A stretch of DNA of 64,000 nucleotides from Desulfurispora thermophila DSM 16022 (GTDB lineage: Bacteria > Bacillota > Desulfotomaculia > Desulfotomaculales > Desulfurisporaceae): the NCBI RefSeq assembly GCF_000376385.1, contig NZ_AQWN01000005.1:1-64000 (forward strand), written 5' to 3'. The notes beneath the pieces are model-generated. The model worked only from the letters and a program-made list of their open reading frames with translations, was not told where the DNA came from and did no database searches. Below, in pieces: positions 1-60,423 of the stretch (positions are counted from its first letter, which is position 1; every line of letters begins with the position of its first letter). A program made the position numbers and the translations under genes.

Positions 1-116
1 CCGCGCCAGCCCCAGTTGAGACAGGATGTCGAATCTGGGGCGGCCCGGCCCGCCCGCGACCGAGCCGTTGGTGCTGCCCGGTACGAAATTCGGGCGAGCG
101 AAGGATGCACATCCGC
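1..116 (+). repeat. Long intergenic repeat, copy A (cut by window start)
   Basis: This is the 3' half of the 211-bp repeat family described at 32471. It begins inside the first AGGA hairpin, continues through the second hairpin (stem CCCCAG/CTGGGG, loop AGGAT at about 25-29) and the GGTGCTGCC segment, and ends with the right terminus at 91-116 (CACATCCGC instead of CACACCCGC). It is in sense orientation upstream of the transketolase half-gene. The open frame that runs through it into that gene is a by-product of the GC-rich repeat. Confidence 0.85.
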
Positions 117-170
117 ATACACTGGAACACGCCTACATAACCAAACACCCTATTCCGGAGTTCGTACAAA

Positions 171-9135: not shown

Positions 9136-9229
9136 CATTGCACATGCTCGCACTGCATTATCCCAGCCGCGACTGAGCCGCTGGTGCTGCCCGGTACGAA
9201 ATTCGGGCGAGCGAAGGATGCACACCCGC
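9136..9229 (+). repeat. Short-form repeat, copy G
   Basis: Starts directly after the stop codon of the LytM gene with GCATTGCACATGCTCGC, a variant of the hairpin seen complete at 38580, then joins the right half of the long repeat (CGACTGAGCCG, GGTGCTGCC) and ends with the standard right terminus at 9204-9229. The same fusion is found in reverse at 18800-18904, which defines a short subfamily of about 95-105 bp lacking the two AGGA hairpins. Confidence 0.8.
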
Positions 9230-9253
9230 GTTCAGGTATACCAAGAGAAACAC

Positions 9254-10951: not shown

Positions 10952-10980
10952 GTATCCGCCGGCGAAGGATACACACCTGC
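10952..10980 (+). repeat. Solo right end of the repeat family, degenerate
   Basis: GGCGAAGGATACACACCTGC matches the last 20 nt of the right terminus with two changes. GTATCC and GGATAC around it form a 6-bp stem. The flank TTACGCTGTAGT at about 11001-11012 is the reverse complement of ACTACAGCGTAA at 25645-25656 beside another end, so the conserved flank may extend beyond the core. Confidence 0.65.
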
Positions 10981-11047
10981 AATGGTCAAATTAAAAAATT
11001 ACGCTGTAGTACCAATTGCCTGGGTGAAAGATAAAGAGGTGAAAGCA

Positions 11048-18799: not shown

Positions 18800-18904
18800 G
18801 CGGGTGTGCATCCTTCGCTCGCCCGAATTGCGTACCGGGCAGCACCAACGGCTCGGTGGCGGGCGGGCCGATGTTTTCAGATGCGAGCATGTGCAACGCT
18901 CGCC
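18800..18904 (-). repeat. Short-form repeat, copy F (reverse)
   Basis: Read on the minus strand it starts with GCGAGCGTTGCACATGCTCGC, continues through GCCCGCCCGCCACCGAGCCG and GGTGCTGCC, and ends with the right terminus. It shares its left part with copy G (9136) and the hairpin at 38580. It is the only sizeable copy opposite to the following gene. The rest of 18700-18982 shows no gene. Confidence 0.82.
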
Positions 18905-25636: not shown

Positions 25637-25648
25637 TACTAACACTAC

Positions 25649-25686
25649 AGCGTAAAACTTGCGGGTGTGCCTTTCCTGAGCGAGCG
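25649..25686 (+). repeat. Solo left end of the repeat family
   Basis: AGCGTAAAACTT then GCGGGTGTG (25661-25669) and CCTGAGCGAGC match the left terminus and its outer flank seen at 32460 and 53280. The remainder of the element is absent. It lies upstream of the debranching-enzyme gene in sense orientation. Confidence 0.75.
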
Positions 25687-28896: not shown

Positions 28897-29787
28897 ATGG
28901 CGCTGCGCATGGTTATTGTCACCGGCCTTTCCGGAGCCGGGAAAACCCAGGCGGTACGTGCTCTGGAGGATCTGGGTTTTTTCTGTGTGGACAACTTGCC
29001 ACCCCGCTTGATGGGCAAATTTGTGGAACTGTGTCTGGCCTCCCGGCGGGAAATTAAAAATGTGGCCCTGGTGGTGGACATCCGGGGAGGAGAGTTTTTC
29101 GACGACCTGAGCGACGCTCTGACCGGCCTGCAGCAGGGGGGGATTAAGTATGAAATCCTCTTTCTGGAAGCATCGGACGATGTGTTGCTGCGCCGTTATA
29201 AAGAGGCGCGGCGAGTTCACCCTTTAAGCCAGGGAGGGGATGTGCTGGCCGGCATCCGGCAGGAGCGGGAAAAACTGCGCGAGTTGCGCGGCCGGGCCGA
29301 TGTGAAAGTGGATACCTCCCGCCTTTCTCCCGCGCAACTGAAAGAAATTATCCGCAGTCATTTCGCTGTCGATGAAAGCGGTGGCCGGCTGCGCGTCACC
29401 ATTACCTCTTTTGGGTATAAATACGGCATTCCTTCCGACTGTGACCTGCTTTTTGATGTCCGCTTCCTGCCCAACCCGCACTATCAGCCCGATTTGCGCC
29501 CCCTGACGGGCAATGATCGGACGGTGGCCGATTATGTACTGGCTCCGGCCGTTACCGGGCAGTTTTTGCATAAATTGCAGGACTTGTTGCAGTTCTTGCT
29601 GCCTTACTATCAGGCCGAGGGCAAATCGGGGCTGCAAATCGCTGTGGGATGCACCGGCGGGAGACACCGTTCGGTAACCATCGTCAATGAACTGGCTCGC
29701 TTCCTTCGCCAGCAGGGGTACCCGGTGCAGGTACAGCACAGAGACATCGGACAGCCGGCGGAGGGAGATGTATGCGGCAGCTCGTGA
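28897..29787 (+). CDS. rapZ: RNase adapter RapZ / YvcJ-type nucleotide-binding protein
   Basis: A 296-residue P-loop protein with GLSGAGKTQA (about 8-17) and a C-terminal domain with the conserved GCTGGRHRSV. In Enterobacteria RapZ controls glucosamine-6-phosphate synthase mRNA decay; in B. subtilis YvcJ is a GTP/ATP-binding protein of less clear role. ATG at 28897 has GAAAGGGGTGG at good distance. It overlaps yvcK by 16 bp, as in the conserved rapZ-yvcK-whiA group. The short gap before it (28856-28896) contains small GTCGTCAG-type direct repeats. Confidence 0.95.
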   Translation: MALRMVIVTGLSGAGKTQAVRALEDLGFFCVDNLPPRLMGKFVELCLASRREIKNVALVVDIRGGEFFDDLSDALTGLQQGGIKYEILFLEASDDVLLRRYKEARRVHPLSQGGDVLAGIRQEREKLRELRGRADVKVDTSRLSPAQLKEIIRSHFAVDESGGRLRVTITSFGYKYGIPSDCDLLFDVRFLPNPHYQPDLRPLTGNDRTVADYVLAPAVTGQFLHKLQDLLQFLLPYYQAEGKSGLQIAVGCTGGRHRSVTIVNELARFLRQQGYPVQVQHRDIGQPAEGDVCGSS

Positions 29788-31052
29788 AATGGCTATATCC
29801 GGGCCTGCAGGTGAAACGCTGGCTACTGCTGGCGGCCGGGGGTTTTTTGCTGACGCTGGCGGCCAGTGCGCTGCTGGCGGCGCGTTTCTGGCCCTTCCCC
29901 CGTCAGCTGGTGCTGGAATGGGGGCGCGCCCATCTGGGACTGGCGGCGGACTGGCCCTGGCTGGTGCTGGTGGGGCTAACCGGGCTGGCCGCCAACATTT
30001 ATGGCCTGTACCGGGCGGTCAAATCGCTGCTGGTTGTGCTGCAGCCCGACGGCACCCGCCTGGTGGATTTACTCTACGCCCGGCATTATTTACGGCGTGG
30101 TCCGCGTATTGTGGTCGTCGGCGGTGGCACGGGCCTTTCCACCCTGCTGCGCGGCTTGAAAAAATACACCAGCAATATCACGGCCATTGTTTCGGTGGCC
30201 GACGACGGTGGCAGTTCGGGGCGGTTGCGCCAGGATATGGGTATCCTGCCGCCCGGTGATATCCGCAACTGCCTGGTGGCGCTGGCCGACCGGGAGAGTC
30301 TGATGGAGCAATTGTTTCGCTACCGTTTTCCCAGCGGTGAGCTGGCCGGGCATAGCCTGGGCAACTTGCTGCTGGCCGGTATGGCCGACCTTACGGGCAG
30401 CTTCCAGCAGGCGGTGCACGACATCAGCCGTGTGCTGGCCGTGCGGGGGAGGGTGCTGCCCGTAACCCTGCAGAAATGCACCCTGGGCGCCCGCTATGCC
30501 GATGGTGGTGTGGTCTGGGGAGAGTCGAGCATCCCGCAGCCGGGGCGGCAAATTGCTGAGGTGTTCCTGTCGCCCGCCGACTGCCGGCCTCTGCCCGAAG
30601 CGCTGGCCGCTATCGAGCAGGCCGATTTAATTGTGATTGGCCCGGGCAGCCTTTACACCAGCATTCTGCCCAACTTACTGGTACCCGGTGTTAGCCAGGC
30701 CCTGCAGCAAGCCGCGGGGCGCAAGGTGTATGTGTGTAACGTTATGACCCAGCCGGGGGAAACCGAGGGCTACACGGCCTCTCGCCATTTGCAGGTGTTG
30801 CAGCAGTATGCCGGCCGGACGGTTGACTGGATAGTTGTCAACCGGGCAGAAGTGCCGGTGGCTGTGCGGGAGCGCTATGCGGCCCAGCAGGCCGGACCGG
30901 TGGTGGTGGATGAGACGGAATGCGCCCGCTTGGGAGTGACCGTGCTGGCGGAGGATCTGTTGCAAATAGAAGGCCAGGTGGTGCGCCACCACCCGGAGAA
31001 ACTGGCCGGCCTGTTGATGGGCCTGTTGCTGGCCGACCGGCCGATGCGTTAG
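29772..31052 (+). CDS. yvcK: YvcK/GlmR-type factor with N-terminal membrane segment
   Basis: A 426-residue member of the YvcK/CofD-like family, which in B. subtilis binds UDP-sugars and tunes amino-sugar flow into the cell wall. The family core starts near residue 108 (RIVVVGGGTGLSTLLRGLKKY) and includes VADDGGSSGRLR, PPGDIRNCLVALA and IGPGSLYTSILPNLL. Before it are about 105 residues with two hydrophobic helices (about 18-38 and 58-80), so this version should be membrane-anchored, unlike the soluble B. subtilis protein. ATG at 29772 follows GGAGGGAG and overlaps rapZ. The usual next gene, whiA, is displaced by 1.7 kb. Confidence 0.93.
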   Translation: MRQLVKWLYPGLQVKRWLLLAAGGFLLTLAASALLAARFWPFPRQLVLEWGRAHLGLAADWPWLVLVGLTGLAANIYGLYRAVKSLLVVLQPDGTRLVDLLYARHYLRRGPRIVVVGGGTGLSTLLRGLKKYTSNITAIVSVADDGGSSGRLRQDMGILPPGDIRNCLVALADRESLMEQLFRYRFPSGELAGHSLGNLLLAGMADLTGSFQQAVHDISRVLAVRGRVLPVTLQKCTLGARYADGGVVWGESSIPQPGRQIAEVFLSPADCRPLPEALAAIEQADLIVIGPGSLYTSILPNLLVPGVSQALQQAAGRKVYVCNVMTQPGETEGYTASRHLQVLQQYAGRTVDWIVVNRAEVPVAVRERYAAQQAGPVVVDETECARLGVTVLAEDLLQIEGQVVRHHPEKLAGLLMGLLLADRPMR

Positions 31053-31172: not shown

Positions 31173-31384
31173 GCGGGTGTGCCAATCCCGCACGAGCCCG
31201 TCCGGAGCGCCGGTTGCAGCACCCGGCGAGGCCACGGCAGCGGGCCGGGAGGCGCGGACAGGACGTCCGCGCCAGCTCCAGTTGAGACAGGAGGTCGAAT
31301 CTGGGGCGGCCCGGCCTGCCCGCGTGGCCGAGCCGCTGGTGCTGCCCGGTGCGGAGTTCGGGCGAGCGCGGGATGCACACCCGC
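31173..31384 (+). repeat. Long intergenic repeat, copy B
   Basis: A full 212-bp copy from GCGGGTGTG to CACACCCGC. It keeps both AGGA hairpins (loops AGGAC and AGGAG), the CCCGGC/GCCGGG stem and the long-range GCAGCACC/GGTGCTGC pairing. The left end GGGTGTGCCAATCCCGC recurs as an exact inverted copy at about 31415-31431, just past the right end. The gap 31053-31594 between yvcK and the deacetylase holds this copy, a damaged partial copy and no gene. Confidence 0.9.
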
Positions 31385-31406
31385 CGAGAAACAAGCAACG
31401 AGGGCT

Positions 31407-31532
31407 TGCGCGGGATTGGCACACCCACTGCAAGCCTAAGCCCATCTGTGACAGGCGAGTGTTGTCCATGTTCGCCGGGCAAGCCAGTGCGCCCGGTTTT
31501 CCGGACGGGCGAGCACGGGATGCACACCCGCC
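31407..31532 (+). repeat. Damaged repeat copy following copy B
   Basis: Begins with a hairpin GGCTTGC/GCAAGCC that encloses GCGGGATTGGCACACCC, an inverted copy of the left end of copy B. It ends with a clear right terminus (CGGGCGAGCACGGGATG then CACACCCGC, about 31506-31531). The central AGGA hairpins are missing. Confidence 0.65.
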
Positions 31533-31594: not shown

Positions 31595-32452
31595 ATTACA
31601 GTCAAAAGAGTGCTGCTGGCCCTGGTCAGTCTGGTTTTCATGGCGGCCGCCGTGGCCCATGTGGTCTACCACGACGCCCGTTACAAACTGACCCTGGCCC
31701 TGTTTGAAGCGTACCCGCCCGCTGCAGCCGAGGGCAAAAGCGGGCCCCGGCCCGTGCCCGTGCTGATGTACCACAAGGTCAACCCGGACCCGCGCACCGG
31801 CGGTCTGGGCCTGCGCGTGCCGCCGGACAAATTTGCCTGGCAGATGGACTTTCTGGCCAGCCACGGCTATCACACCGTCAGCCTGCTGGACGTGCTGGCC
31901 GCCTGGCAGGGGCAGAAAAAGCTGCCCTCCCGGCCCGTGGTGATCACCTTTGATGACGGCTACCTGGACAACTACACTTATGCCCTGCCTATCCTGCGCC
32001 AGCACGGCTTCACTGCCACCGTGTTCGTGGTGGCCGGCACAGTGGGGGGGATAAATTCCTTCGACTATCCGGTACGCCAGCCGCGCAATGTCATGATGGG
32101 CTGGGATGAGATTAAAAAGATGCAGCAGGCCGGCATCACCATCGGCTCGCACACGCTTAACCACCCCCATCTGGCCGACCTGACGGCAGATCAGCAGGCC
32201 TACCAGTTGCGCCGCAGCAAGGAGATCCTGGAAGAACACCTGGGCCGGCCGGTGGATGTGCTCTGTTACCCCTATGGCAGCTATAATGAGGAAACACTGC
32301 GCCAGGCCGCTGCAGCCGGTTATTGGGTAGCCGTAACCACAGTGCAGGGCCTGGCTGTACCTGCCGATGCACCGTACCGGCTGAAGCGCATCCGTATCCG
32401 GGGGGATTACTCCCGGGATAAGTTTGTGCATGAGTTGCTGCGGTATTATTAA
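31595..32452 (+). CDS. Polysaccharide deacetylase (CE4), apparent ATT start
   Basis: A membrane-anchored or secreted deacetylase of 285 residues acting on cell-wall or capsule N-acetyl sugars. One N-terminal hydrophobic helix (about 6-25) is followed by a NodB domain (about 55-280). The metal and catalytic residues are visible: TFDDGYLDNY (Asp-Asp) and SHTLNHPHL (His-x3-His), plus a late CYPYGSYNEE motif. AAAGGTGGTGA (31578-31588) sits 6 nt before ATT at 31595, which yields a basic N-terminus (ITVKRVLLALVSL). The frame is closed by TGA at 31586, and the only conventional start is GTG at 31610, 21 nt from the Shine-Dalgarno. The gene lies between two direct repeat copies inside the normally compact yvcK-whiA interval. 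Confidence 0.9.
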   Translation: MTVKRVLLALVSLVFMAAAVAHVVYHDARYKLTLALFEAYPPAAAEGKSGPRPVPVLMYHKVNPDPRTGGLGLRVPPDKFAWQMDFLASHGYHTVSLLDVLAAWQGQKKLPSRPVVITFDDGYLDNYTYALPILRQHGFTATVFVVAGTVGGINSFDYPVRQPRNVMMGWDEIKKMQQAGITIGSHTLNHPHLADLTADQQAYQLRRSKEILEEHLGRPVDVLCYPYGSYNEETLRQAAAAGYWVAVTTVQGLAVPADAPYRLKRIRIRGDYSRDKFVHELLRYY

Positions 32453-32459
32453 GATTTAG

Positions 32460-32681
32460 AGCGTAAACATGCGGGTGTGTTATTCCTGAGCGAGCCAGTC
32501 TGGAGTATCGGCTGCAGCACCCGGCGAGGGCGCGGTAGCGGGCCGGGAGGCGCGGACAGGACGTCCGCGCCAGCCCCAGCTTTCGACAGGATGTCGAATC
32601 TGGGGCGGCCCGGTCCGCCCGCGACCGAGCCGCCGGTGCTGCCCGGGACGGAATTCGGGCAAGCGAAGGATACACACCCGC
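32460..32681 (+). repeat. Long intergenic repeat, copy C (reference copy)
   Basis: The core runs from GCGGGTGTG (32471) to CACACCCGC (end 32681), 211 bp, with outer flank AGCGTAAACAT. Predicted pairing: 9-bp terminal stem; GCAGCACC with GGTGCTGC; hairpin CCCGGC/GCCGGG; hairpin GGCGCGGAC (32549-32557) loop AGGAC with GTCCGCGCC (32563-32571); hairpin CCCCAG-CT-TTCGAC (32574-32587) loop AGGAT with GTCGAA-T-CTGGGG (32593-32605); and CGGC/GCCG further on. GGA is exposed in both adjacent loops. It is in sense orientation upstream of whiA. The gap 32453-32795 holds this copy, a terminator and the whiA promoter. Confidence 0.92.
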
Positions 32682-32702
32682 AAATGACAGCCTTAATACA
32701 AT

Positions 32703-32758
32703 ACACAGCCTTTTCAGTAAACTTTATGAAGATACTGAAAAGGCTGTGTTTATTTTTT
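32703..32758 (+). terminator. Strong terminator before whiA
   Basis: ACACAGCCTTTTCAGTA (32703-32719) and its exact complement at 32733-32749 form a perfect 17-bp stem, followed by TTATTTTTTG. It should stop transcription from the deacetylase and isolate whiA from its usual operon partners. Confidence 0.88.
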
Positions 32759-32795: not shown

Positions 32796-33737
32796 ATGTC
32801 CTTCTCGCATTTGACCAAAAACGAGCTGGCCCGCATTCCGGCCGGTTCGCCCTGTTGCCAGCGAGCCGAACTGGCCGCCCTGGCCAGGTTGGACGGCACA
32901 CTGAAAATAGCCCGCCAACAGGTCACGTTGCAACTGGTCAACCAAAATGCGGCCGTGGCCAGACGCATTTTCGCGTTGCTCAAGGAGCTTTTTGATGTTC
33001 AGCCGCGAGTGCTGGTGCAGCGCAAGACCAGATTGCGCAAAAACAACATCTATCTGGTGGTCGTGTCGCCCGGGCAGGCCGGCCCGGTGTTGGAAGCACT
33101 GGGGCTGCTCACACCGGACGGGATGCTGCAGCAAAAAGTACCCCCGTCCATTCTGCGCCGCGACTGCTGCCGGCGGGCCTACCTGCGTGGTGCCTTTATG
33201 GGCGGCGGGTCGGTGAACAACCCCGGCGGTACCTACCACCTGGAGATCATTAGCAATAACGAACAGCACGCCAAAACCCTGGCTGCTTTGATGAAACGTT
33301 GCGGGCTGGATGCCAAAGTCAGTACGCGCAAAAGCTGGTTTGTGGTTTACTTGAAGGAAAGCGAGCAGATTGCCGCCTGCCTCAGTATTATGGGTGCGCA
33401 CGCCGCTCTGCTGGAGTTTGAAAACAAGCGGGTCATGAAGGACATGCGCAACCATGTCAACCGCCTGGTGAACTGCGAAACGGCCAACCTGAACAAAACT
33501 GTCCAGGCGGCCGTCAAGCAGGTTGAGGATATTAAACTTATCGAAAGCACCATCGGTCTGAATGAACTACCAGAGCCTTTACGGCAAACGGCCCGGCTCA
33601 GACTCAACCATCCCGACGCCAGCCTGCGGGAACTGGCCGAGATGAGCCAGCCGCGTTTGGGACGTTCCGGCATCAACCACCGCCTGCGCAAAATTGAGCA
33701 AATAGCCCGGCAACTGCGGCAGGATACCTCCGGGTAA
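32796..33737 (+). CDS. whiA: DNA-binding protein WhiA
   Basis: A 313-residue regulator. The N-terminal part resembles LAGLIDADG homing nucleases without the catalytic residues (about 80-200, [24 protein letters not shown]). The C-terminal helix-turn-helix is at about 250-310 ([32 protein letters not shown]). In Streptomyces it controls sporulation, and in B. subtilis it affects division and chromosome segregation. ATG at 32796 has a modest GTGAGG upstream. It is normally cotranscribed with rapZ-yvcK; here it has its own promoter after a strong terminator. Confidence 0.96.
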
Positions 33738-48397: not shown

Positions 48398-48645
48398 GCG
48401 GGTGTGCCTTGCCTTAAGCGAGCCCGTCTGGAGTACCGGCTGCAGCACCCGGCGAGGGCGCGGCTGCGGGCCGGGAGGCGCGGACAGGACGTCCGCGCCA
48501 GCCTTGGCTTTCGACAGGAAGTCGAATCAGGGGCGACCCGGCCCGCCCGCGACCGAGCTGCTGGTGCTGCCCGGTACGAAATTCGGGCGAGCGAAGGATA
48601 CACACCCGCCGTGTTCAGGAAAACACACTCGCAAGTTTACGTTAC
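48398..48645 (+). repeat. Long intergenic repeat, copy D, with an extra end
   Basis: A full core copy (48398-48609, 212 bp) with loops AGGAC and AGGAA in the two adjacent hairpins. The second hairpin's outer stem is CCTTGG with CAGGGG, kept mostly by G-T pairs. An additional inverted end follows at 48624-48645 (CACACTCGCAAG then TTTACGTTAC), complementary to the AGCGTAAA-CTTGCGGGTGTG flank at 25649. It is in sense orientation 20 bp before the thrC ATG. The gap 48247-48667 contains only this. Confidence 0.9.
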
Positions 48646-57340: not shown

Positions 57341-57820
57341 GTGATAGTAGCGCAGGAGCGATACCAGCAATACAACCTGCCTGTTGAGGAACAAAAACGC
57401 CGTCCCGTCCGCCGTCCCGTCCGGCAAAAACACCCCGAGCGGGCGGTGTTGCTCTGCCTGATGGTGGCCCTGCTGGGGACGGGGATGGGGATAGTCTATT
57501 ATTATGCCCAGCTGGTGAGCACAGCTTACCAGATATACTGCCTGAAGCAGGAACTGCAGGCGCTGCAACAGGAGACCGAAAGTCTGGCCGCAGGCATTGC
57601 CGACCTGTCCTCCCTGCGCCGGGTGGAGCAGGTGGCCGTGCACAAGCTGGGTATGGTCAGGCCGGACGGTCAAACCCTGGTTTTACACCAGAGTGTGAGC
57701 AACCAGCCGTCTGAGCCGCCCGCCCGGCCGCCCGCCGGCCAGCGGGCGCAGGCGGCACTGGCGCCGGGCCAGCCGGTCTGGCTGCAGGTCTTTGCCCGGC
57801 TCATGGGTCAGGGCGGATAA
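57341..57820 (+). CDS. ftsL: Cell division protein FtsL
   Basis: A small bitopic division protein of 159 residues: basic cytoplasmic N-terminus (about 1-33), one transmembrane helix (about 34-56), a short leucine-zipper-like coiled coil (about 62-95, LKQELQALQQETESLAAGIADLSS) and a Pro/Gln-rich tail. The position between rsmH and the penicillin-binding protein gene is that of ftsL, whose product recruits FtsI/PBP2B with DivIC. GTG at 57341 follows AGGAGGAGTG. Confidence 0.85.
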   Translation: MIVAQERYQQYNLPVEEQKRRPVRRPVRQKHPERAVLLCLMVALLGTGMGIVYYYAQLVSTAYQIYCLKQELQALQQETESLAAGIADLSSLRRVEQVAVHKLGMVRPDGQTLVLHQSVSNQPSEPPARPPAGQRAQAALAPGQPVWLQVFARLMGQGG

Positions 57821-57866
57821 CTTAAGCGGCTTTCCCGACAGGTGGGCTGAAACGGAGGTGATGGTC

Positions 57867-60044
57867 ATGCGCTCCAGTGCCATTATCCGCAAAAGGCTCA
57901 CCTGGCTTTTTTTCATTATGGCCGGGCTGATGGGGGTGCTGCTGCTCCGCCTGGTTTGGATCACGGGCGTGCAGAGCGATGAACTGCGCCGGCGGGCCGA
58001 GGAAGTGCGCATGAAGGATATTCCGGTGGAGGCCAGGCGGGGCAACATTTACGACCGCAACGGGCGGGAACTGGTGACCAGCATCAGTGCGGATTCGGTC
58101 TACGCCGTACCCTACCGGGTGAAAGATCCCGCGGCCACGGCCAGGGCCCTGGCCGGTGTGCTGGACATGGATGCGGGTAAGCTGGAGAGGATCTTGTCCC
58201 GCCGTTCCGGATACGAATGGATTAAGCGCAAGATTACCCCCGAGCAGAGTTACCGGGTGCGGCAGCTGGCCCTGCCGGGCATTTATCTGGTGGAGGAAAG
58301 CGTCCGCCTGTACCCGCACGCCACTTTAGCCGCCCACCTGCTGGGATACAGCGGGGTGGACAACCAGGGGCTGGCCGGGCTGGAAAAAACCTTCGACCAG
58401 TACCTCAAAGGCACGGACGGCCGCATTCTGGTGGAACACGACGCCGCCGGGCGGGAACTGCCCGATCCCCAGGAGCGTTTCATCGCCCCCCGGCAGGGCC
58501 ACAGCCTGGTGCTGGCGCTGGACGAAAACATCCAGTATTTTGTGGAGCGCGAACTGGACAGAGTGGTGGCCCGCTACCAGCCCCGCCTGGCGGTAATTGC
58601 CGTCATGGACCCGGCCAGCGGCGAAGTGCTGGCCATGGGTAGCCGTCCCACCTATGATGCCAACCAGTGGAAAACCGCGCCGCCCGAGGTGCGGGACCGC
58701 AATCCGGCGGTGTGGTACAATTACGAGCCGGGTTCCACCTTTAAAATCATTACCGCGGCGGCCGCCCTGAATGAAAAGGTGGTGCAGGAAAACGACCGTT
58801 TTTACGACCCCGGCTACGCCAGTGTGGCCGACCGGCGCATCCGCTGCTGGAAACCGGGCGGGCACGGCAGCCAGAGCTTTACCGAAGTGGTGATGAACTC
58901 CTGCAACCCGGGCTTCATCGAAGTGGGCCTGCGCCTGGGTAAAGAGCGGTTTTACAATTACTTGCAAGCATTCGGTTTTGGCCACAAGACCGGACTGGGA
59001 CTGCCCGGCGAGGCCCGGGGCATAGTCATACCCGAGCAGCAGGCCACCAATTTGAACCTGGCCACCATGTCCATCGGTCAGTCAATTGCCGTCACCCCCA
59101 TTCAGCTTTTGACGGCGGTCTGTGCCGTGGCCAACGGTGGTACCCTGTACGAGCCCCATCTGGTAAAGCAAGTGCGGGATGCTAAGGGGCAGGTAGTCAA
59201 GACCTTCGCCCCCCGCCCACTGGGCCGGGTGATCCAGCCCGCTACGTCCACGCGCCTGGCCGCGCTGCTGGAAAAGGTGGTGGCTCTGGGCACCGGGCGC
59301 AATGCCTTTGTGGAAGGATACCGGGTGGCCGGCAAAACCGGGACAGCCCAGGTGGTGGGCGAACAGGGCGGTTATGTCAGTGGTCGCTATGTAGCCTCTT
59401 TTGTGGGATTCGCTCCCGTGGAAAAACCCCGCTTTGCCATGCTGGTGATGATTGCCGAGCCGCAGGGCGGTATTTATTACGGCGGCCAGGTGGCGGCACC
59501 GGTTTTTCAGAGCGTGGCCCGGGACATTCTGCACTACCTCAATGTGCCGGCCGACCCGGCCCTCACCAAGCCCCGCCTGCCCCACGAGTGGCAGGAAAAG
59601 CCGGCGCCCAGAGTGACGGTGCCCGATGTGGTGAACCGGCCGCTGGGTGAGGCGGACCGTTTGCTGCGCGAGGCCGGTTTGCGCTGCCGCGTCAGTGGCA
59701 GCGGGCCGGTGGTGCTGCGGCAGGTGCCGCGCGCCGGTGTGGAGATGCTGGCCGGCCAGTCGGTGCTGCTGGAGATGGAGCCGCTGCCGCAAAAAAGCGA
59801 CGTACAGGTTACGGTGCCCAATTTGAGCAACCTGACGCGCCAGGAGGCCGGGCAGCTTTTGCAGCAGCTGGGCCTGGTGCTGGTGGCCGAGGGCAGCGGC
59901 CTGGTGGTGGAGCAGCAGCCGGCGCCCGGCCGGCGGGTGGCGCGGGGCAGCCAGGTGCGCGTGCAGTGTGCGCCGCCGGGGCGCCCGCTGCAGCCTGTGG
60001 TGCAGATCCGGCCGGTGCTGGGCGAGGAGTGGATCGCGGATTAG
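57867..60044 (+). CDS. Class B penicillin-binding protein with PASTA domains
   Basis: A division or sporulation peptidoglycan transpeptidase of the FtsI/PBP2B/SpoVD group, 725 residues. One N-terminal transmembrane helix (about 12-32), dimerisation domain (about 50-230) and transpeptidase domain (about 250-580) with active-site PGSTFK, SCN in VMNSCNPGF and KTGTAQ. Two PASTA domains (about 590-650 and 660-715) follow. ATG at 57867 has GGAGGTGA 8 nt upstream; ATG at 57861 is too close to it. I cannot decide between PBP2B and SpoVD from the sequence. Confidence 0.94.
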   Translation: MRSSAIIRKRLTWLFFIMAGLMGVLLLRLVWITGVQSDELRRRAEEVRMKDIPVEARRGNIYDRNGRELVTSISADSVYAVPYRVKDPAATARALAGVLDMDAGKLERILSRRSGYEWIKRKITPEQSYRVRQLALPGIYLVEESVRLYPHATLAAHLLGYSGVDNQGLAGLEKTFDQYLKGTDGRILVEHDAAGRELPDPQERFIAPRQGHSLVLALDENIQYFVERELDRVVARYQPRLAVIAVMDPASGEVLAMGSRPTYDANQWKTAPPEVRDRNPAVWYNYEPGSTFKIITAAAALNEKVVQENDRFYDPGYASVADRRIRCWKPGGHGSQSFTEVVMNSCNPGFIEVGLRLGKERFYNYLQAFGFGHKTGLGLPGEARGIVIPEQQATNLNLATMSIGQSIAVTPIQLLTAVCAVANGGTLYEPHLVKQVRDAKGQVVKTFAPRPLGRVIQPATSTRLAALLEKVVALGTGRNAFVEGYRVAGKTGTAQVVGEQGGYVSGRYVASFVGFAPVEKPRFAMLVMIAEPQGGIYYGGQVAAPVFQSVARDILHYLNVPADPALTKPRLPHEWQEKPAPRVTVPDVVNRPLGEADRLLREAGLRCRVSGSGPVVLRQVPRAGVEMLAGQSVLLEMEPLPQKSDVQVTVPNLSNLTRQEAGQLLQQLGLVLVAEGSGLVVEQQPAPGRRVARGSQVRVQCAPPGRPLQPVVQIRPVLGEEWIAD

Positions 60045-60128
60045 TGGTAGCCTCATGAGTTGTCAGCGGTTGGACAGCAAGTTGGTTCGGAGTCAATTCC
60101 GCTTCTCACGGGTACGCATCCAGCGCTC

Positions 60129-60335
60129 GGGCGCGCCAATCCCGAGCGAGCCCGTCCGGAGCGCCGGTTACAGCACCCGGCGAGGCTGCGGTAGCGGGCC
60201 GGGAGGCGCGGACAGGATGTCCGCGCCAGCCCCTGTTGAGACAGGAGGTCGAATCAGGGGCGGCCCGGCCCGCCCGCAGCCGAGCCGACGGTGCTGCCCG
60301 GTGCGTAGTTCGGGCGAGTCAGGGATGCGCGCCCG
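60129..60335 (+). repeat. Long intergenic repeat, copy E
   Basis: About 207 bp, diverged at both ends (left GGGCGCGCCAATCCCG, right GCGCGCCCG). Both central hairpins are kept with loops AGGAT and AGGAG. The second hairpin's outer stem is CCCCTG with CAGGGG, a compensated change compared with CCCCAG/CTGGGG in copies A and C. It lies between the PBP gene and murE, in sense. The gap 60045-60544 holds this copy, a probable promoter (60424-60452) and a GC-rich foldable leader at about 60466-60520. Confidence 0.88.
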
Positions 60336-60423
60336 ACTGCCGGCGACTGACTTTAATCAAGGGCAAGCGCATCCGAGCAAGGAATGCGTACCTGAAAGAA
60401 GTCGAGCTAGCAGTAAACCGCGA

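Follow-up and report, generated by a model that had tools for sequence, protein, structure and literature searches.

Regulatory RNAs of the CsrB, CsrC and RsmX/Y/Z type are free small RNAs bearing many sites each, and CsrA of Gram-positive bacteria is thought to be mainly under FliW control. REP elements, for their part, exemplify structures that adjust the expression of operons or keep exonucleases away from upstream mRNA. The TwoAYGGAY RNA family has been listed since 2010, its function being unproven. It was proposed in 2014 by Gardner and Eldai as a CsrA-binding RNA of Clostridia, as was the reverse complement of the Bacillaceae-1 RNA (PMC4333381). The consensus for CsrA/RsmE is CANGGANG (PMC6692469). 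CsrA is unmentioned in a 2024 review of prokaryotic miniature inverted-repeat mobile elements (MITEs; PMC10969869).

The window analysed here, a 64,000-nt stretch of the Desulfurispora thermophila genome, contains copies A to E of a repeated element along with several of its fragments (Table 1). Similar sequence was found at 42 places of the whole genome (G000, 2.82 Mb, 19 contigs), of which 27 are full or nearly full copies bearing both hairpins; homologues of copy C elsewhere in the genome are 84-93% identical to it. An inverted left-end fragment (GGGCTTGCGCGGGATTGGCACACCC) lies at 31402-31426, 18 nt downstream of copy B.

Table 1. Element copies, fragments and neighbouring features in the window.
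Feature	Position	Strand	Details
Copy A	1..117	+	truncated by the start of the contig; retains right end and hairpin 2 (loop CAGGATG at 22)
Right-end fragment of element	9162..9230	+	
Element fragment	10962..11010	+	terminates in terminal repeat TTACGCTGTAGT
Right-end fragment of element	18800..18870	-	
Left end of element	25644..25686	+	ACTACAGCGTAA...GCGGGTGTGCC, then truncated
Copy B	31173..31384	+	between cofD-family gene (29772-31052 +) and deacetylase gene
Polysaccharide deacetylase gene	31610..32452	+	PF01522, E 2.7e-34; copy C in its 3' UTR
Copy C, full element	32471..32682	+	single RNA, end-to-end fold; ends GCGGGTGTG/CACACCCGC
Copy C, hairpin 1	32549..32571	+	GGCGCGGAC-[AGGAC]-GTCCGCGCC; CsrA-type loop CAGGACG
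Copy C, hairpin 2	32573..32606	+	outer GCCCCAG/CTGGGGC, inner TTCGAC-[AGGAT]-GTCGAA
Intrinsic terminator after copy C	32703..32758	+	17 bp stem and 13 nt loop, followed by TTATTTTTT
whiA, next gene past terminator	32811..33737	+	PF02650, PF14527, PF10298
Copy D	48398..48609	+	divergent junction: degV-family gene (-) / threonine synthase gene (48668 +)
Copy E	60128..60337	+	between penicillin-binding protein gene (57792-60044 +) and Mur ligase gene (60545 +)

These repeats are copies of TwoAYGGAY (RF01731, clan CL00106). Taking a score above the gathering threshold of the Rfam covariance model (43 bits) as the sign of membership, copies B, C and E belong to the family (45.3, 48.0 and 48.7 bits), as do 23 of 28 matches in the genome; no match of copy D over the gathering score is among the matches listed. 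The two GGA-loop hairpins, the tandem G-A and the outer helix of the family are all present. In contrast to the described family, the window copies have 5-nt AGGAN loops with no N ahead of GGA, cover only model positions 46-112, and form the high-copy body of mobile inverted-repeat elements. ACGGAU, AUGGAY and AAGGAU loops are found in the relatives and in a type-2 subfamily of the same genome, so that the general rule is A(N)GGA. This subfamily (C2:261351, C8:74902, C5:203477) gives the best matches to the full RF01731 model. One of its elements, with first loop ACGGAU, is nested within a type-1 element at G000:C8:74772-75173 (L344, L052), the two subfamilies, with different ends, thus occurring side by side. 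Bacillaceae-1 (RF01690, reverse complement), which shares with these repeats the CsrA-binding proposal and, in Siminovitchia, repeated twin CAGGANG hairpins, is a separate family whose units are short (~57-67 nt) and sometimes form tandem arrays. Head-to-tail arrays of ~57-nt units with such twin hairpins were seen in Siminovitchia and Bacillus (L123, L125, L124).

The initial annotation knew of no CsrB-type RNA in Firmicutes, but CsrA-binding RNAs had already been proposed there for both families, and the central idea of CsrA-binding repeats is already published as a hypothesis. What is new here is the lineage-wide conservation of the loops, the strand-specific RNA covariation, the co-occurrence with csrA and the spread by terminator splitting in relatives.

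The pairs of neighbouring hairpins described by the initial annotation, each with a C-[AGGAN]-G loop, are present in copies B-E and partly in A. The first loop reads CAGGACG in B (31259), C (32557) and D (48485) and CAGGATG in E (60213); the second reads CAGGAGG in B (31288) and E (60242), CAGGATG in C (32587) and CAGGAAG in D (48515). The coordinates given for the pair in copy C were correct for the hairpins but covered only two hairpins of a folded element of ~212 nt with inverted-repeat ends. In most copies other than C, the inner part of hairpin 2 contains a tandem G-A instead. By itself the CAGGANG 7-mer is frequent, with 73 occurrences in the window against 34 expected. The pattern GACAGGANGTC-N4-30-GACAGGANGTC occurs 19 times in the genome, a control pattern not once, and copy C (32471-32682) folds at -144.8 kcal/mol against -99.5 +/- 4.8 for its shuffles (z -9.4; none of 200 as low). 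On account of these values and of the RF01731 scores above gathering, the tandem hairpin structure is not due to chance.

Compensatory changes extend this end-to-end fold to other copies and together bear out the claim of a structured RNA. Across the 27 copies of the genome, standard pairs occupy 97.2% of pair cells and both sides have changed in 29 of 77 pairs (shuffled 9.6 +/- 1.8; slid controls 4-9), while a cross-lineage set of 26 representatives from ~21 genomes of the order plus one Lachnospiraceae shows double changes in 33 of 38 pairs and 185 double-change cells against 49 +/- 6; in both sets related copies are non-independent and the structures were predicted from the same alignments that were tested. 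G-U exceeds A-C on the GGA strand in the own copies (53:25, p 0.002) and in the cross-lineage set (37:20, p 0.03), and this excess points to selection acting on the RNA of that strand. We considered whether repair of palindromes at the DNA level could by itself account for the covariation and rejected this, since repair would give one strand no preference for G-U over A-C, although the cells counted are non-independent.

Covariation also bears on whether these repeats include a classical CsrB-like RNA, in which one or a few copies with their own promoter would yield a free RNA sequestering CsrA, the rest being decayed duplicates. Such an RNA was put forward by Gardner and Eldai (PMC4333381), each RNA would offer two strong predicted sites, and the type-2 subfamily fits the full model best. 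Against this, compensatory pairing is kept in many near-equal copies, so that no single master copy is evident, and a weak test revealed no sigma-70-type promoter-like site in sense orientation close to B or C. Like CsrB/CsrC/RsmX/Y/Z, the repeats carry CANGGANG hairpin loops and have CsrA as a likely partner, but each element has just two sites, not the many GGA motifs in one RNA of the CsrB/RsmZ type, and copies are many and dispersed. We thus regard a classical CsrB-like RNA as unlikely.

Conservation of the loops is best judged across lineages. In the first loop the columns are conserved at C 100, A 96, G 96, G 100, A 100, N 73 and G 100%, and in the second at C 100, A 96, G 96, G 100, A 96, N 46 and G 100%, whereas stem columns other than the closing pair range from 50 to 88%; for hairpin 1, this is 96-100% for A, G, G, A and the closing pair versus 58-88% for the remaining stem. 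Stems are rewritten from genome to genome (GGCGCGGAC, GGCGCCCAC, GCCGGATGC, TCTGCGGCC, TGCCGGCA and others), yet both loops stay C-A-(N)-G-G-A-N-G in the 26 representatives, with an optional base between A and GGA and a free base after GGA; these representatives were gathered with RF01731, itself GGA-preferring, while for the own copies plain similarity at the DNA level was used. The conserved loop columns equal the CANGGANG consensus. It had been expected that the loop GGA would be better conserved than the stems. This is clearly so across lineages but not inside the genome, where both are near-invariant, and GGA conservation within one genome was therefore discarded as an uninformative test. 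Likewise, GGA never changes in the window, as had been stated, but the second loop is ACGAT in 2 of the 27 genomic copies. As counter-evidence, the second loop of the subfamily in relative G052 is ACGAU.

Similar motifs were also encountered elsewhere. REP-like palindromes GGACAGGATGTCC (L109, L111, L142, L156, L175, L180) are repeated in genomes in which no csrA was found, and consequently such a palindrome alone is no CsrA signature; none of those scanned from csrA-less genomes matched RF01731. The generic pattern GGACAGGANGTCC was rejected for naming CsrA RNAs in other phyla, for it also matches coding sequence and these palindromes. A twin-CAGGA-hairpin element of similar architecture is scattered in dozens of near-identical copies through Thalassocella blandensis, a marine gammaproteobacterial MAG with two csrA genes (L081, L084, L087 and many more loci).

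As a CsrA-binding role presupposes, the D. thermophila genome encodes one csrA, adjoining fliW. The protein (116 aa) retains L2, L4, R6 and R44; it has a C-terminal extension of ~50 residues past the usual core (L001, 1303-1653). With kinship ignored, csrA is present in 22 of 27 genomes of the order with RF01731 versus 40 of 86 without (p 0.0017), and in 49 of 51 versus 236 of 347 genomes of an overlapping phylum sample (p 4e-6). The association is confounded with flagellation, since csrA marks flagellated genomes and, in the order, occurs in exactly the same set as fliW. Each of the six named genomes with loci matching RF01731 or Bacillaceae-1 has csrA; no csrA was detected in three copy-carrying genomes of the order (G014, G079, G088; completeness 91-97%). 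In two genomes with csrA, fliW appears split or stop-interrupted (G052:C45:55874-56226, G039:C38:2990-3351); G052 holds at least 22 element copies. Binding of CsrA by the element is likely.

All 27 copies in the genome are intergenic, often starting soon after a stop codon. Copy C, starting 19 nt past that of the deacetylase gene, forms part of a sense 3' UTR, as it lies between this codon and the intrinsic terminator ahead of whiA. Relative to the GGA strand, 15 copies are tandem sense, 7 tandem antisense, 3 convergent and 2 divergent, gene calls for these counts coming from a simple codon model. When pooled with four relatives, sense and antisense copies in tandem-gene contexts number 36:16 (p 0.008), but the sense bias is not general, since the tandem copies of G026 and G027 are antisense (12:0). 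Copies of these two genomes (e.g., L278, L285) are longer, ~370-450 nt, with AGCGACC-rich ends. The suggestion that the repeats are modules of mRNA leaders is thus mostly wrong: 15 of 27 copies are tandem sense, copy C sits in a 3' UTR and the relatives' copies lie inside terminators. Copy D, which lies 59 nt upstream of the threonine synthase gene, is the only one resembling a leader.

Such positions would also suit a cis-acting mRNA element independent of CsrA, that is, a hyperstable 3'-UTR or intercistronic structure shielding upstream mRNA from exonucleases or tuning operon expression. The stability of the fold, the exclusively intergenic location and the 3'-UTR placement in copy C and in relatives agree with it; invariant ANGGA loops and an invariant C-G closing pair, on the other hand, are unneeded for stability alone. 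We find this explanation improbable.

The elements have terminal inverted repeats, are non-coding and are multicopy, as are MITEs. That TwoAYGGAY RNA makes up the body of miniature inverted-repeat mobile elements is a finding new here. In D. thermophila the ends ACTACAGCGTAA...TTACGCTGTAGT are clear in part of the copies, some of which are bounded by TA at both ends, and short elements with identical ends lack the hairpins. The copies within each relative examined make up a subfamily of close similarity specific to that genome; inverted repeats resembling CAGACTGTNGACAAA form the ends in G054, G094, G095 and G052, differ from those of D. thermophila and occur at 117 places in G054 (4 for the control). 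No insertion-sequence-like spacing of ends, as expected of an autonomous transposase with the same ends, was found among the places listed, and one G027 and one G026 copy for which ORFs were listed have only ordinary genes alongside and no transposase.

In the relatives, flanking direct repeats score at least 20 in 23 of 32 copies with both ends recognised, compared with 2.3% of mismatched flank pairs. The 22 copies scoring at least 30 have direct repeats of 17-31 bp (median 23.5), nearly all of them hairpins of the intrinsic-terminator type. A T-run is found only outside the right repeat copy (4.0 vs 1.9 T in 8, p 3e-4) and an A-run only outside the left one (4.5 vs 2.3, p 1.7e-4). At the gene junctions that hold two of the G054 insertions, G055 lacks the element and has a single terminator hairpin. 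Loci of G054 and G094 (e.g., L256, L232) exemplify a mobile element targeting and duplicating whole intrinsic-terminator hairpins of 17-31 bp. Since the hairpin is duplicated and the U- and A-tracts remain only outside, insertion splits a bidirectional terminator and, with the U-tracts left outside, places the RNA inside 3' UTRs. Transcripts from either side would pass the first hairpin, its U-tract lost, cross the element and stop at the far hairpin. No terminator duplication was seen in D. thermophila, where a terminator lies downstream of only copy C and one other of the 27 copies. Prokaryotic MITEs such as BOX, RUP and SPRITE share with these elements their short length, non-coding nature, inverted ends, target duplication, intergenic location and structured transcripts; in contrast, the elements described here include a conserved, probably protein-binding RNA module and, in relatives, target and duplicate an intrinsic terminator.

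Inverted-repeat ends, duplicated terminator hairpins, empty sites, near-identical genome-specific subfamilies and truncated or short hairpin-less copies would all be expected of a purely selfish element, with hairpins serving transposase recognition or harmless read-through folding and GGA loops unrelated to CsrA. Nonetheless, the short copies retain their ends, which shows that the hairpins are dispensable in that role, and the core is kept with at least two different sets of inverted repeats. Moreover, the loops fit the CsrA consensus base for base, optional N included, amid complete stem change, the G-U excess indicates selection on one RNA strand, and the family is associated with csrA. 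Pure selfishness therefore seems doubtful to us.

Rather, we favour as the probable explanation that the repeats are RF01731 members forming the bodies of non-autonomous, transposon-like elements that present predicted CsrA sites, with a possible role as a sponge, in mRNA stability, or both. Transcription of neighbouring genes would read through the element, whose RNA would present two CsrA sites near enough for bridging by one CsrA dimer. Many transcribed copies may then jointly titrate CsrA, forming a sponge distributed among mRNAs in place of a single CsrB gene; alternatively or additionally, CsrA may act on the stability of the mRNA carrying the element. Each insertion probably adds a CsrA-binding site to a neighbouring mRNA. 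More tentatively, the mobile family could spread CsrA-binding modules into 3' UTRs via terminator splitting, the sum of its transcribed copies possibly constituting a distributed CsrA antagonist in FliW-CsrA bacteria. If true, this would be a transposon-borne alternative to CsrB-type small RNAs. Mobility also supplies a mechanism for the spread of the TwoAYGGAY family. An RNA that is widespread, mobile and multicopy and carries two conserved CsrA sites would bring regulation by RNA into the FliW-centred control of CsrA, and would show a transposon distributing the binding sites of a global regulator.
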